From a virus: 43,103 nt of DNA. Below are positions 2,134 through 31,800 of this stretch, one piece after another. Under the pieces are notes generated by a model. The model did no database searches and had not been told where the DNA came from. It saw only the letters and a list, made by a program, of their open reading frames with translations. Position numbers and translations under genes: made by a program. The stretch's first letter is position 1. The number at the start of each line of letters is the position of its first letter. The stretch is taken from IMG/VR virus record IMGVR_UViG_3300048839_001270, positions 1 through 43,103 of that record; one strand, 5' to 3'.

Positions 2134-2332
2134 TTCGTTCGTCACGTTTAATATGCATGAACAATTCTTCTTCCGTAGAAGGAAAAAATTCCGGTTCTTC
2201 GTTTATATGAACTACTTTTAATTCCGGTTGATTTGTAGGAATTTTAAAATCCGGGTTGGCTTCTTCAATCAAAGCCTTAATTGCATTAAACAATCGGCTT
2301 TCCCTTTTTATTTTCTTACTAAACAAGTTCAT
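2120..2332 (-). CDS. Hypothetical small protein, 70 aa
   Basis: It begins MNLFSKKIKRESRLFNAIK and is charged and soluble, with an acidic second half. It overlaps the 3' end of the HNH-RNA ligase gene by 14 nt and the start of the next gene by 14 nt, so translational coupling is likely. No family was recognised. Confidence 0.55.
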   Translation of the reverse strand: MNLFSKKIKRESRLFNAIKALIEEANPDFKIPTNQPELKVVHINEEPEFFPSTEEELFMHIKRDERNDEI

Positions 2333-3359
2333 TTTTTATTATTTTTTGTGTACTCCAGTGTCCGTGATTATTCTGTACGTGATTCTTGCGTACATATTTT
2401 CCACAAACATTTCTAAATTCGCTATAATGATATTCTCTTGTAAGTCTAACAACATAACCCTCAACAATATTTGGACTTCCTTCCATTCTTTTATTAAGTT
2501 CTTCAATAACACTCATATCCCAAATACCTTTATAAAAAACAGGTACAAGTGTAAGTCCGAGAAGTTCTGCCCATTCTTCAGTTTCGTCCCAAGATAAGCA
2601 AAAATTCTTTTCGTTCCAAATACTAAACATATAAAAATACGTTTGTAGTGCATTTTTATTTTCTTTGGTATAATGAATTGCATGCTTGGCATACATATTT
2701 TCGCCACAAACACGCCAACCTTCGGGAATTTCGTAACCATGTTGTGCCCAGAGGTTCTTAACCCAAGTACGGCTGGGATGACTATCACTATCTAAAGACC
2801 TTGCATGCATATAATCCCGATACCATGTGGTGTTTTCGCCATCAAGTTTCTCACAAATCATGACTTGTTGACCCTCAAATATTGATACGTCAGTCATTTG
2901 TCTATCATCCCTATTCATTCCGGGAGACCAAGGTAGATGAAAAGTTCGGGGATATTTAACCCTGTCAGCAAAAAGATTTAAAACATTTCCTTGTTTTAAT
3001 ATTTTTTGTACTGACGGGTCATCAAATAAATCGCCTTTGATTCTTGTGCCATTTCGAAGAATTTCATTCCCCCATTTATCATATTCAACGTCCGAATAGA
3101 AGTGTTCGGGGAGAACGACTGTTTCGATTTTTGCTGCTTTTCTGATTTCATCACAAGTAAGTGTTGTTTGTTCTGCAAGAATATGGTGCTTTTCACAGAG
3201 ACTTGCACCATTATTAATAAAGTAACCACCATTAGAAAAGAGTCTGCGTTCTATTATGTGGTGAGCGTCTTTCGCAGGTTCACCACAGATAACGCAAAGA
3301 TGCCCGTCTCTTTCGAAGACGGACTCACGGAAAGTGTCTCTATCTAATAGTGTTTCCAT
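2319..3359 (-). CDS. HNH nuclease-RNA ligase fusion protein
   Basis: Residues about 10-65 form an HNH domain: CVICG, then AHHIIERRLF, an Asn-rich turn and CEKHH. Residues about 130-330 carry the nucleotidyltransferase motifs of RNA ligases: motif I EKLDGEN (the Lys would carry AMP), GENMYAKHAIHY as motif III, YFYMFSIW (IIIa), VEGYVVRL (IV) and GKYVRK (V). The family joins RNA ends through an adenylated intermediate. The ligase part resembles the T4 Rnl2/DRB0094-type group. The combined 346-residue chain is one continuous frame. The HNH part might cut nucleic acid or serve as a zinc-bound RNA-binding module. Confidence 0.85.
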   Translation of the reverse strand: METLLDRDTFRESVFERDGHLCVICGEPAKDAHHIIERRLFSNGGYFINNGASLCEKHHILAEQTTLTCDEIRKAAKIETVVLPEHFYSDVEYDKWGNEILRNGTRIKGDLFDDPSVQKILKQGNVLNLFADRVKYPRTFHLPWSPGMNRDDRQMTDVSIFEGQQVMICEKLDGENTTWYRDYMHARSLDSDSHPSRTWVKNLWAQHGYEIPEGWRVCGENMYAKHAIHYTKENKNALQTYFYMFSIWNEKNFCLSWDETEEWAELLGLTLVPVFYKGIWDMSVIEELNKRMEGSPNIVEGYVVRLTREYHYSEFRNVCGKYVRKNHVQNNHGHWSTQKIIKNELV

Positions 3360-7147: not shown

Positions 7148-7632
7148 TAATTTTTACTCCAATTAAAGAAATTAGAAAATGTGCTACCCATTGCTTTTGC
7201 TGCTTCATCACTAAATTTTTCACCAACCTTAAAATTTTCACAATCAACCTCATATGCAATTAATTCTTCGCTTTCAGGTGTGCTGAATATCATAACAATA
7301 ATATCAATTTTGTCTTTAAGTTCAGATATTTTAACGCTGCCGTTTAAAACGAGTTTTGTCATTTCACTATCTGCATCCATTCTTGCACCATTGGCTTCAA
7401 TAATAAGACCTGCAGCAAGAACATTTGGTTGGGCACAAAAACTCTTAATCATTTGAGCAAGCATTGCTTTTCCTTCAGGTGTTGATATATATTCAGGAGG
7501 TACTACACTCATAATTGGTCTATCGTCTTTAAAAAAGAAGACAATAGGGGCAACATATCCGTCTTTTTCAAAATTTGCAATCATTCCGTTCCTCAGAACT
7601 TCTTTAAAATCATTTAATTTTTCGCTTTTCAT
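7147..7632 (-). CDS. Hypothetical protein, 161 aa
   Basis: Starts MKSEKLNDFKEVLRNGMIA; a soluble alpha/beta protein. The pattern VAPIVFFFKDDRPIMSVVPP, a helix with AQMIKSFCAQ, then IDIIVMIFSTPESEELIAYE suggests an alternating beta-sheet fold. It is the first gene after phage-type promoter copy 3. No family was recognised. Confidence 0.65.
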   Translation of the reverse strand: MKSEKLNDFKEVLRNGMIANFEKDGYVAPIVFFFKDDRPIMSVVPPEYISTPEGKAMLAQMIKSFCAQPNVLAAGLIIEANGARMDADSEMTKLVLNGSVKISELKDKIDIIVMIFSTPESEELIAYEVDCENFKVGEKFSDEAAKAMGSTFSNFFNWSKN

Positions 7633-24535: not shown

Positions 24536-26464
24536 TTATTGATTTAAAAAGTTCTGAATTTTCTCATCATACGAATATATTATCTTGTCGTTAACTCCTT
24601 TTTCAATAAGGGTTAACCCAAACCTATTACAGATTTCCACAAATAAATCAATGGGTATCATATTCTTATTAATTGTATTCCTAATAAGTTCCTTGTACAA
24701 ACCCATGTGTTTATTTAGTAAATCTTTAGAACGTTTCTTTTCTTCAGATAGAATTATTTCGATGGTTTCATTTGTTTTATCAATATCGTAATTCATATCA
24801 TGTGGCATTTGCACATTTTCTTTTGATATTCTTGAAACATATTCACTCATACCATACCATCTGACATATTTACCCGCAATATCTGTTGCAATCAATATGT
24901 CGTGTGACGAACCATTAGATTTAAATTCCTCACCAAATACAAGTTCTTCCGCAACAATACCTGACAATAGTATTGCAATTTGATTCCGAATGAATGTTTT
25001 ATTGTCAATCGAACTATGATTAATAACAAAACCATTCTCAAGTCCGGCACTGTTAATATTGATTTGTTTTGGTGGTGTTTTAAATAAAAGCGCATAAATC
25101 AATGCATGACCGAGTTCGTGAACTATAACCAACATTTTCTCATCAAGAGATTTACCATCACGAATATCATCAATATCCAAAACTAAATCTTTTTGAATTG
25201 TTTTACCGTTGATGTCTGTAATTAATTTTTTATTCTCACATCTCAAGTTAAATTTATTGACATCATTAAGCATCGCATGATACATGAAGAAGGGAAGATT
25301 AGTGCCGAGAATATTATAAACTGTTGATATTGCAGGTCTAACCCCCTGAGTTGGGAATACACCATTACGATATATTACATCATAAACGGAAGAATCTAAC
25401 TCAACCTCAATATCATGCTGTGATTTAATTTTATCGAGAACCTGTTTAGCGTTTTTCTTTATGATTATCTGATAACTTTTTTTATCCAAACATGGGTAAA
25501 TTATATGATTATTTCCGAATCTCGCAATTTGCTCCGGTTTGAATTTATATGCCAGTGCATTTTTTATGTGAATAATATTAATTCTTTTCGAGAGTTCATG
25601 AAACACATCAGCATCTCTTTCAACTTCTTCAACTTCTTCAGACATTCTAAATGCCTCATCGAGATTCCCGGAAATAAATATAAGAAGTTTTTCATAAGAT
25701 TTGCCTTCATTAACATTTCCGGCTTTAAGGTTTTCTTCCATTATTTCCAGTCGCTGTTCGAGGTTCATCTCCATTATTTCCTCTGTTGAAATCTTGAGAT
25801 TCAACATTTTTTTAAACTTGCTGGCAGTCCAATATGATGTTTGAAATCTTCTTTTCTTTGGGTTTTTAATCTTTTTTTGTTTTTTATCATCATCAGCATT
25901 TGATGGTGTATCGGAATCAATTTCTTCCTCAGTATTTTCACGATAGTCCAACCAATACAATTCATCCATAAGCATTTCAACAATTTCGGCTCTACGTTGT
26001 GAATTGTTTTGAAACTTGCCGTCAGATAGTAACATCCAGATGTCATTGAAGTACTTATTCTCTATCATACGACCAGTTTCATCAATCGCTCTGTATCGTT
26101 GAATTTCATCCAATAATAATATTGCGGGTTCATTCGAATCAATTCCACTGTTATCTAAATAATTTTCAATATTTTTAGCATAATCGTTTTTTAAATCCAT
26201 TTGAATTTCAATGAACTTATCAGTATAGTTTAATTCTTTGACAAGTGTACGAACTAAATCAGTCTTTCCCACACCAGTAATTCCCCATAGTGAGATGATT
26301 AATGGTCTGAATTGAAGTTCAGGTGTTTGATACCATAGTGATATATTATCAATTATCTTATCAATAACACTATCAATACCAATAAACTTTTCCTTCAACA
26401 CTATTTTTACTTCTTCAAGTTTTTCACGTCTGGTTTTAATTTGCTCAAGAAATTCTTTATTCAT
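24536..26464 (-). CDS. AAA+ ATPase fused to an M41 (FtsH-type) peptidase
   Basis: Residues about 55-390 are an AAA+ module: Walker A GITGVGKTDLVRTL, Walker B AILLLDEIQRY, sensor 1 LIFISGN, an arginine-finger segment PEQIARFGN, and sensor 2 GVRPAIS. The order and the GVRP motif look like Clp/HSP100 proteins. Residues about 420-560 carry the M41 signature: HELGHALIYAL as zinc site, IAILLSGIVAEELVFG, and GSSHDILIATDIAGKYVRW where the Asp is the third ligand and GMSE follows. Known FtsH has a classic AAA module and two membrane segments; neither is seen here. It probably unfolds and cleaves proteins. Domains are linked in one 642-residue frame. Confidence 0.85.
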   Translation of the reverse strand: MNKEFLEQIKTRREKLEEVKIVLKEKFIGIDSVIDKIIDNISLWYQTPELQFRPLIISLWGITGVGKTDLVRTLVKELNYTDKFIEIQMDLKNDYAKNIENYLDNSGIDSNEPAILLLDEIQRYRAIDETGRMIENKYFNDIWMLLSDGKFQNNSQRRAEIVEMLMDELYWLDYRENTEEEIDSDTPSNADDDKKQKKIKNPKKRRFQTSYWTASKFKKMLNLKISTEEIMEMNLEQRLEIMEENLKAGNVNEGKSYEKLLIFISGNLDEAFRMSEEVEEVERDADVFHELSKRINIIHIKNALAYKFKPEQIARFGNNHIIYPCLDKKSYQIIIKKNAKQVLDKIKSQHDIEVELDSSVYDVIYRNGVFPTQGVRPAISTVYNILGTNLPFFMYHAMLNDVNKFNLRCENKKLITDINGKTIQKDLVLDIDDIRDGKSLDEKMLVIVHELGHALIYALLFKTPPKQININSAGLENGFVINHSSIDNKTFIRNQIAILLSGIVAEELVFGEEFKSNGSSHDILIATDIAGKYVRWYGMSEYVSRISKENVQMPHDMNYDIDKTNETIEIILSEEKKRSKDLLNKHMGLYKELIRNTINKNMIPIDLFVEICNRFGLTLIEKGVNDKIIYSYDEKIQNFLNQ

Positions 26465-30670: not shown

Positions 30671-30724
30671 AAAAAAAGGGACTCCCTCACGCAGAGTTGA
30701 ATGCCTACTTCACTTGGGAGTCCC
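30671..30724 (-). terminator. Intrinsic terminator of the large RNA
   Basis: GGGACTCCC and GGGAGTCCC (minus strand) pair over 9 bp around a 29-nt loop and are followed by seven T. The loop holds GGCATTCAA, which is complementary to TTGAATGC. Confidence 0.88.
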
Positions 30725-30878
30725 CGCATTCAGTTTGGTTTTATCTTCATTAAACCAACAAACTTAGGTTTGCGAAACCTTTCCTGCCTGCTGCACCTTC
30801 TTTTTATCTGGCATTCAGACCTACATTCGTAGGCACGTTACACAGCATTCAACACGTAGCCACCGTGTTAGGCTTCGA

Positions 30879-30983
30879 GCGCAGGGTGGGATTCGAACCC
30901 ACATGTCCAGTGATTGGTGCACCGTTTCGTTCTGTCAACCACACCTTCTCAGATGTGTGCCCTCACCATTAAGCGACCTACGC
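30879..30983 (-). tRNA. tRNA-like domain with long variable region
   Basis: The acceptor stem GCGTAGG/CCTGCGC (7 bp), a D-arm-like loop AATGGTGA with GG, and a perfect T-arm GTGGG(TTCGAAT)CCCAC are present. The anticodon-like hairpin CACATC(TGAGAA)GGTGTG has a 6-nt loop rather than 7. About 37 nt lie between it and the T-arm, containing a 7-bp stem (GTGGTTG/CAATCAC). No CCA is encoded. It may not be a functional tRNA. Confidence 0.4.
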
Positions 30984-31206
30984 ATAAAAAATCTTTCTAC
31001 CCGTTTCCACACGGAACACCAGAGTTGCCCTCTATTACATACTTCGGTCTGCCCTTACCAGACTGCTTCACTTGGCGAAGGGTGTTTTATGGCAAACAAC
31101 GTCCTTTGGAATAGGACTGTAACTATGGTTGCCCAAACCCAACCACTCCGTGAGTTTCCTCAATTACTGTTTGCTTTCAGCAGAAAGACTATTTCAAAGA
31201 ACAATT

Positions 31207-31237
31207 AATATACATAAAGTATATAAAAATGTTACAA
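31207..31237 (-). promoter_or_regulatory. Phage-type promoter copy 8, driving the large RNA
   Basis: TTGTAACATTTTT and TATATT at 19 nt. The -10-like box lacks the usual CG before it and has two base changes. It directly precedes the RNA domain at 31174. Confidence 0.7.
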
Positions 31238-31242
31238 TTTTA

Positions 31243-31800
31243 TTATTTTTTCTCTTTTGGAAACAGGTCAACATCATTTTCCTCACCAGTGCTGAATGCT
31301 TCTTTAGTTTTTCCACTGGTAACTAATTTGATTTCCAAATCCGGTTTATTGCCAAGAACTAAACTATTGGGGAATGTAACCTTCATTGTTTTAAGTTCCC
31401 TGTCGATGTCAATGAGTTTCTTTTGTTCCATAGTGAACTCATTACGACTACCTTCAATGGTATTCATTAGGGTCTTGTAAAGACTTGCATCGAATTCTGG
31501 ATTGGCTTCTGTTACCCATTTCATAAGAGTTTGCTGACCAGCACCTGCATCATTCTGGTATCTTGCATCCATGATTTCAACAAAAACTTCCCTGAAACCT
31601 TCTTTGTACTCTACAGTGACATTCGCTTGCAGTTGAATTTTCTTCCAAGTGTTGTCGAATACAACTTCACTGTTTTGCTGGAATGCTTTACCTGTTTGAT
31701 ACTTTTTATTATAGGTGTTCGACAGACCTATTGCCCAAAAGACAATGCTGAGTACAATAACACCAAAAATTCCTAATCCAATAATACTACCTGTTTTCAT
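31243..31800 (-). CDS. LemA family protein
   Basis: An N-terminal membrane anchor (about 6-26, IGLGIFGVIVLSIVFWAIG) is followed by NTYNKKYQTG and a helical body with VFDNTWKKIQLQ and YKEGFREVFVE, as in LemA (two long helices exposed outside). LemA genes in bacteria often stand near membrane-protease genes, though their role is not clear. It has its own host-type promoter and no terminator is visible before promoter copy 8. Confidence 0.7.
   Translation of the reverse strand: MKTGSIIGLGIFGVIVLSIVFWAIGLSNTYNKKYQTGKAFQQNSEVVFDNTWKKIQLQANVTVEYKEGFREVFVEIMDARYQNDAGAGQQTLMKWVTEANPEFDASLYKTLMNTIEGSRNEFTMEQKKLIDIDRELKTMKVTFPNSLVLGNKPDLEIKLVTSGKTKEAFSTGEENDVDLFPKEKK

Follow-up and report, generated by a model that had tools for sequence, protein, structure and literature searches.

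A conserved structured RNA of phages that contains a tRNA body unable to read codons

The minus strand of a 43,103-base IMG/VR virus record (analysed whole, and called the window in what follows) encodes at 31202-30671 a new, evolutionarily conserved structured noncoding RNA. It consists of a leader, a 5' domain, a tRNA-like unit, a pseudoknotted 3' domain and a terminator, and it constitutes a new family alongside the phage RNAs that are kept near tRNA genes. (All features of the RNA given below lie on the minus strand.) As part of this conserved multi-domain structure the RNA contains a tRNA body that is unable to read codons. Its architecture is conserved in about 22 distinct copies, every one of them from metagenomic contigs and all on phage-type contigs, which makes it close to certain that the locus is a real structured RNA family. 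No description of this RNA was found in the papers searched.

A preliminary description of the same DNA had proposed a large structured RNA of about 530 nt that encodes no protein, and both halves of that proposal hold. On the coding strand there is no ORF of at least 60 aa between 31243 and 30498. A protein-coding reading by way of a 101-aa antisense ORF (30903-31208, plus strand) was rejected because that ORF is not conserved; its frame is broken up in relatives, and L011 and L108 have stops in it. Folding of the 536-nt strand yields -167.2 kcal/mol, compared with -152.8 +/- 6.0 kcal/mol for shuffles (z -2.4; 1/100). This excess is modest by itself, and is backed by covariation that was looked for across the relatives and is strong. 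Strand swaps, used to test several helices that had been assigned by hand, favour hand-picked helices; the tests of the 3' domain and the tests at fixed positions are less prone to that bias, even if the CM alignment is still fitted to its own structure.

The tRNA-like unit (30878-30983) is the single match of the whole window to Rfam 15 at gathering thresholds (tRNA, RF00005; 30983-30878; 39.5 bits, with a 34-nt insert); ARAGORN calls none anywhere in that sequence. The acceptor stem, D-arm and T-arm elbow that mark a tRNA are all present: the acceptor stem has 7 bp (30983-30977/30885-30879) and the T-arm, GUGGGUUCGAAUCCCAC (30902-30886), is canonical, just as had been described for a third domain at 30983-30879. 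Between them are the D-arm, a short non-decoding hairpin at the anticodon position and a long variable arm. The discriminator is U73 (at 30878), and it is followed by CGA; there is no CCA. In 23 units from 18 loci, 158 of 161 acceptor cells and 114 of 115 T-stem cells are paired, both values exceeding every shuffle, and the two helices stay paired while their sequence changes among units. The decoding end is another matter. Nine Gly-like units were read, and in these a flush 7-nt anticodon loop is never seen (the loops are of 4, 5, 6 or 8 nt), no anticodon is conserved, the sequence of the anticodon-position hairpin changes, and a long arm makes up the variable region. (Because MAFFT did not register the variable arms when the inserts of the tRNA-like units were aligned, the helices of these arms were assigned by hand.) The C-R-A that follows the discriminator was considered as a special mark of a mimic, and this was dropped because ordinary tRNA genes of a 206-kb relative, G020, also end in CAA or CGA.

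The loop of the variable arm holds an 8-nt palindrome, GGUGCACC (30916-30923), which is a candidate self-kissing site. Homologous octamers change yet remain self-complementary (GGUGCACC, AGUGCACU, CGUGCACG, CAUGCAUG and, with G-U pairing, CGUGCAUG), and GUGCAC or an AUGCAU variant recurs in the insert of most Gly-like units and of several others, usually inside an 8-nt palindrome. Units with any 8-nt palindrome number 15, against 5.2 expected when related sequences are counted as independent. The pattern is suggestive of kissing between two molecules. It is also what speaks for the RNA being a self-assembling scaffold, which would form homodimers or larger assemblies by way of the palindromic variable-arm loops in the manner of GOLLD and ROOL, phage RNAs that occur near tRNA islands and assemble into cages by kissing loops (PMC12286853). 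Such a scaffold is nevertheless doubtful: four copies (L006, L007, L074 and L068) are without the palindrome, palindromes of 6 nt show no excess (17, against 14.9 expected from shuffles), the palindrome bases of the window copy can pair internally as well in its MFE structure, and some copies are without a 5' domain.

The 5' domain (30990-31190) is closed by a 10-bp helix (31190-31181/30999-30990), and its MFE and comparative structures agree. In L089 the closing helix is swapped for an unrelated complementary pair, GAGAAGUG/CACUUCUU (hand-read), and in the L107 copy it is likewise replaced by complementary sequence (by eye). Of the two arms inside, P2 (31092-31174; GCAAACA/UGUUUGC) encloses variable hairpins together with P3, a hairpin with a CCAA(G) loop (31117-31101). 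Every cell is paired in 11 copies (77/77 for P2, 51/51 for P3); P3 covaries and P2 shows hardly any variation. The strongest covariation of the 5' domain is that of the other arm, P4 (31015-31086; AACACC 31086-31081/GGUGUU 31020-31015), in which 72 of 73 cells are paired, against 49% with strands swapped between copies; in the fixed-position test the figure is 70 of 72 against a mean of 60.7 (0/5000). This arrangement bears on an earlier proposal of three domains following one another without gaps. The first of these (31174-31092, closed by GCAAACA/UGUUUGC) exists as claimed, as does the third, the tRNA-like unit, but the second (31091-30984) is no end-closed separate module, and the second internal stem is instead 31086-31081/31020-31015. 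Both the first and the second of these domains are nested within the 10-bp helix, which makes them two arms of a single domain. The 5' domain is missing from a minority of copies (L002, L005, L007, L014, L084 and L087).

The 3' domain (30764-30877; CM R1, 22 copies) is the best-conserved part of the RNA. It is made up of hairpin A, with the loop GUGGCUA (30869-30851), stem X (30847-30842/30794-30789), a loop-to-strand pseudoknot GGC/GCC, and the terminal motif AGGAAAG..AAACCUAA. Its covariation score over 22 copies is 0.500, against 0.166 +/- 0.022 for shuffled alignments (0/500) and no more than 0.121 for slid ones; for hairpin A and stem X in the same copies 93.5% of cells are paired, with both-sided changes in 11 of 12 pairs. 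Covariation extends to the pseudoknot, which reads GGGUAA/UUACCC or AGGCAA/UUGCCU in the beta copies and AGC/GCU in place of GGC/GCC in L085 (all hand-read). CM R1, made from the alpha copies (one 3'-domain variant) only, recovers all five beta copies at E values of 1e-5 to 1e-8. An RNase P or intron reading of this domain was without Rfam support. The hairpin array envisaged at this end of the RNA turns out to be a compact domain of conserved fold (30877-30764) plus terminator hairpins. The first of the latter, UUGGUUU..AAACCAA (30735-30758; from sequence and fold), follows the 3' domain and is terminator-like in relatives, whose equivalent reads CCAGUUU..AAACUGG-Un. The second is a strong intrinsic terminator, as had been claimed: GGGGACUCCC...GGGAGUCCC-U7 at 30671-30725, with similar ones in L068 and L079. 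At the junction of tRNA-like unit and 3' domain, two relatives carry insertions of HNH-endonuclease type (L085:8625-9507 and L086 near 7366-7480; gene type by eye), as if the junction were a homing site.

The strength of 3'-domain conservation lends weight to a possible, tentatively entertained alternative, in which the tRNA-like units would serve only as sites of cleavage by RNase P and RNase Z, freeing the 5' and 3' domains as the working RNAs. Copies carry one or two tRNA-like units, which stand in tandem with next to no spacer between them and the other domains, and retain the features that these enzymes read (acceptor, T-arm, discriminator); T4 RNAC and RNAD likewise lie directly in a tRNA array. 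On the other hand, a bare processing handle would need neither long covarying inserts where the anticodon arm should be nor a recurring palindrome.

Just 5' of the RNA in most copies is a boxA-like antitermination element (GUUCUUUGAAA, 31192-31202 in the window), which probably functions as a boxA. Its equivalent in L089, GTTCTTTAAAA, is the same as the published boxA of L. pneumophila Lens (PMC7862264). A related sequence, GTTCTTTGACATATTG, is located between spacer tRNA and 23S rRNA in the Bacteroidota genomes L118, L119 and L121, and before a CRISPR array in another, L117 (all these features by eye). In the last of these genomes, at L117:1500, GTTCTTTGACATATTGG stands directly 5' of the apparent CRISPR array; its placement would fit a role of boxA in the antitermination of Bacteroidota CRISPR arrays. 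The Bacteroidota-type promoter motif TAnnTTTG begins 12-20 nt 5' of the boxA-like element in 7 of the 14 relevant copies (expectation, 0.034 per site), and L085 has the motif too. The RNA had been credited with a promoter of its own; these copies lend it support, but the window itself has only a degenerate match. The forms of promoter and boxA, together with one copy binned into a Bacteroidota genome, point to Bacteroidota as the hosts.

The search for relatives started from the neighbouring phrog_1383 gene (31243-31800), which led to L002, with the same tail after that gene; a DNA pattern of this tail next led to L005. The RNA ligase gene family provided 68 loci, among which carriers were marked by a nucleotide profile of the tail; L074, L079 and L084-L090 came from patterns of the 5' and 3' domains, and L097/L107 and L094 from the pattern of a hairpin. 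A DNA-level search of 50,697 annotated phage records gave no match. Among 296 Bacteroidota genomes the RNA is present in one, and occurrence in bacterial chromosomes was discounted because this sole carrier contig bears the same phage gene set. Records that were searched whole hold exactly one copy apiece, over divergent phages. This single conserved copy per record, and the compensatory changes in every domain, make it exceedingly improbable that the locus consists of functionless, decaying tRNA genes and spacers, as could be suggested by the absence of an ARAGORN call in the window and by the placement of the RNA inside a tRNA array in one relative.

Most copies occupy the same syntenic position, next to a gene for an RNA ligase. 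The gene order is vWA protein, adenylosuccinate synthetase, R2K ATP-grasp, DNA ligase, three small genes, phrog_1383 protein, the RNA, RNA ligase, a small gene, a Thg1-like gene and p26477 (the vWA and Thg1-like, that is tRNA-His guanylyltransferase, assignments being by eye, without a family search). In the window the ligase gene (PF09414; 29088-29948, minus strand) is the downstream syntenic neighbour. The RNA is immediately 5' of the ligase in L002, L005, L011, L010, L014 and others, which would suit a cis-regulatory leader of the ligase gene that senses the state of tRNA. In the window, however, the strong terminator and small ORFs intervene, and a ligase was not found in five records that all keep the RNA (G008, G015, G016, G017 and G018; two of them are 299 and 365 kb long), so the RNA is independent of the ligase. 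A role as leader is accordingly very unlikely, and an obligate partnership of RNA and RNA ligase was rejected on the same five records. Three other genes deserve mention here. In L068/L075 an in-frame, intein-like insertion interrupts the RNA ligase gene after 'EKIHG'. At 2319-3359 of the window (minus strand), a 346-aa protein matches phrog_24030 'RNA ligase' (E 4.6e-133) and has N-terminal HNH-endonuclease matches; it is possibly a second ligase-related gene or a homing endonuclease. At 24536-26464 (minus strand) is a 642-aa, FtsH-like phage protein with AAA and M41-peptidase domains.

The number of tRNA matches per RNA-bearing record varies from 0 to 53. The highest number is that of G016, which has both tRNAs and the RNA; the notion that the RNA replaces tRNA arrays was dropped on this account. 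Since G016 has the RNA along with 53 tRNA matches and is without the ligase, neither tRNA scarcity nor ligase is required. In G020 the RNA is located within a tRNA array, with ten ARAGORN calls, one of which is the tRNA-like unit itself, and the stretch that was examined has no similarity to the usual neighbourhood of the RNA. A context like that of ROOL and GOLLD had been suggested for the window; there is no tRNA array in the window itself, and the G020 copy does have that setting. The array of the G020 phage (L107:1565-4832, minus strand) has long, apparently structured spacers, and contains more tRNA-like units with inserts as well as boxA-like motifs. It includes, at L107:4605-4465 (minus strand), a circularly permuted tRNA-Asn-like element enclosed by a long stem, with the order anticodon arm CUGUUAA, T-arm, 3' acceptor, linker, 5' acceptor, D-arm. 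This element matches YrlA weakly (32.7 bits, the gathering score being 69) in a record with no TROVE gene, and may represent either a tRNA gene in permuted form or a module akin to Y RNA.

What might the RNA do? Mimicry of tRNA is the likeliest reading, with the processing handle and the scaffold as close rivals and with parts of all three compatible; that a mimic directed at a tRNA-acting protein is the main mechanism has somewhat less than an even chance of being right. RNase P, RNase Z and the proteins that act on tRNA read the elbow and the acceptor stem. The RNA would be transcribed as one unit, with the boxA-type element protecting it from early termination, and the transcript would fold into the 5' domain, one or two non-decoding tRNA-like units and the pseudoknotted 3' domain. 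The elbow (D-loop and T-loop) and acceptor stem of the unit would then be recognised by proteins acting on tRNA, and host RNase P and RNase Z may trim it. Mimicry would be exerted in trans: the mature mimic, having no anticodon loop, would occupy a tRNA-acting factor of the host or of its defence, an anticodon nuclease for example, as a competitor that cannot be cleaved, and the 5' and 3' domains would stabilise, position or present it.

In favour of mimicry, T-arm and acceptor are kept and the decoding loop is absent. The genomic surroundings also argue for it, in that neighbouring genes are predicted to act on RNA (the RNA ligase and, by eye, the Thg1-like protein) and one copy is located in the tRNA array of G020. 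The proposal made for YrlA may serve as a precedent (PMC7790460). Against mimicry alone, the conserved pieces outside the unit, and the palindrome within it, are left unexplained; also counted against it are L086, in which only the 3' domain is seen, behind the insertion, and G016, with its many tRNA matches and no ligase found. A wider proposal, that the RNA founds a broad class of anticodon-less phage tRNA mimics that shield translation from tRNA-cutting defences, with dimers formed through palindromic loops and with T4 RNAC and RNAD as distant or convergent members, is improbable.

Comparison with known RNAs sets the family apart. Rfam 15 searched for ROOL, GOLLD, tmRNA and RNase P gives no match in the window at gathering thresholds, in the window region at E up to 5, or in the loci of nine relatives at E up to 1. 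Membership of a known Rfam family was rejected, only tRNA having been matched and nothing credible having been added at E up to 5; the suggestion that this may be a new class thus gains support. With canonical tRNA (RF00005) the unit shares acceptor, D-arm and T-arm, and its score exceeds the gathering score, but it has a long insert, is without a 7-nt anticodon loop and is missed by ARAGORN in the window. In tmRNA, too, the anticodon part of a tRNA-like domain is replaced by a large insert, which contains pseudoknots. The units of the present family also have inserts in place of the anticodon part; they differ in having U73 or A73 followed by CRA, not CCA, and neither ARAGORN nor Rfam finds a tmRNA in the window.

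The YrlA Y RNA is another noncoding RNA with a tRNA-like module. It is linked to RNA repair genes, is not cut by anticodon nuclease, and has been proposed as a competitive inhibitor of that nuclease (PMC7790460). The YrlA model has no match in the window region and weak ones in L107 only, to other elements; two checks for a Ro60/TROVE gene, over nine and two records (ten RNA-bearing phage records in all, which may be fragments), found none. A Y RNA reading, being without TROVE gene and without model match, was put aside.

T4 RNAC and RNAD (species 1 and 2 RNA; L109:1409-1547 and L109:1554-1672) are stable phage RNAs of the tRNA array whose roles are unknown (PMC3014915, PMC9697503). By eye, the 3' half of RNAC is also tRNA-like, with an acceptor CGGAACG/CGUUUCG, a T-arm and no anticodon loop, an 8-10-bp arm replacing the anticodon arm, and the first hairpin loop of RNAD, GUCGCUA, resembles the GUGGCUA of the window RNA. 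This last likeness was promising by eye, and homology with RNAD was not supported by CM R1, which scores it at 4.8 bits and finds nothing significant in eight T4-like loci (T4 and seven others) with filters off.

GOLLD and ROOL are likewise large noncoding RNAs of phages and prophages, often near tRNA islands, and the likeness in size and context that had been noted for the window RNA is supported, with phage contigs throughout and the tRNA array of G020. They differ in sequence and fold, and it is the window RNA that has an integral non-decoding tRNA-like unit; GOLLD and ROOL form cages, and the window RNA has a candidate self-kissing palindrome. GOLLD, ROOL and T4 RNAC/RNAD are the closest in kind (homology to the T4 RNAs was tested and not found), and the RNA is filed as a new family in a loosely defined kind, the structured RNAs that phages have at tRNA loci. 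The comparative model of its structure can now be entered in Rfam and used for chemical probing. GOLLD, ROOL and T4 RNAC/RNAD exemplify how phages with widely different hosts maintain structured RNAs of unknown function by their tRNA genes. To these the new family adds a Bacteroidota-phage example that has a tRNA body minus its decoding end as a fixed part, and this makes possible a concrete guess that can be tested, namely that such RNAs imitate tRNA to protein factors.
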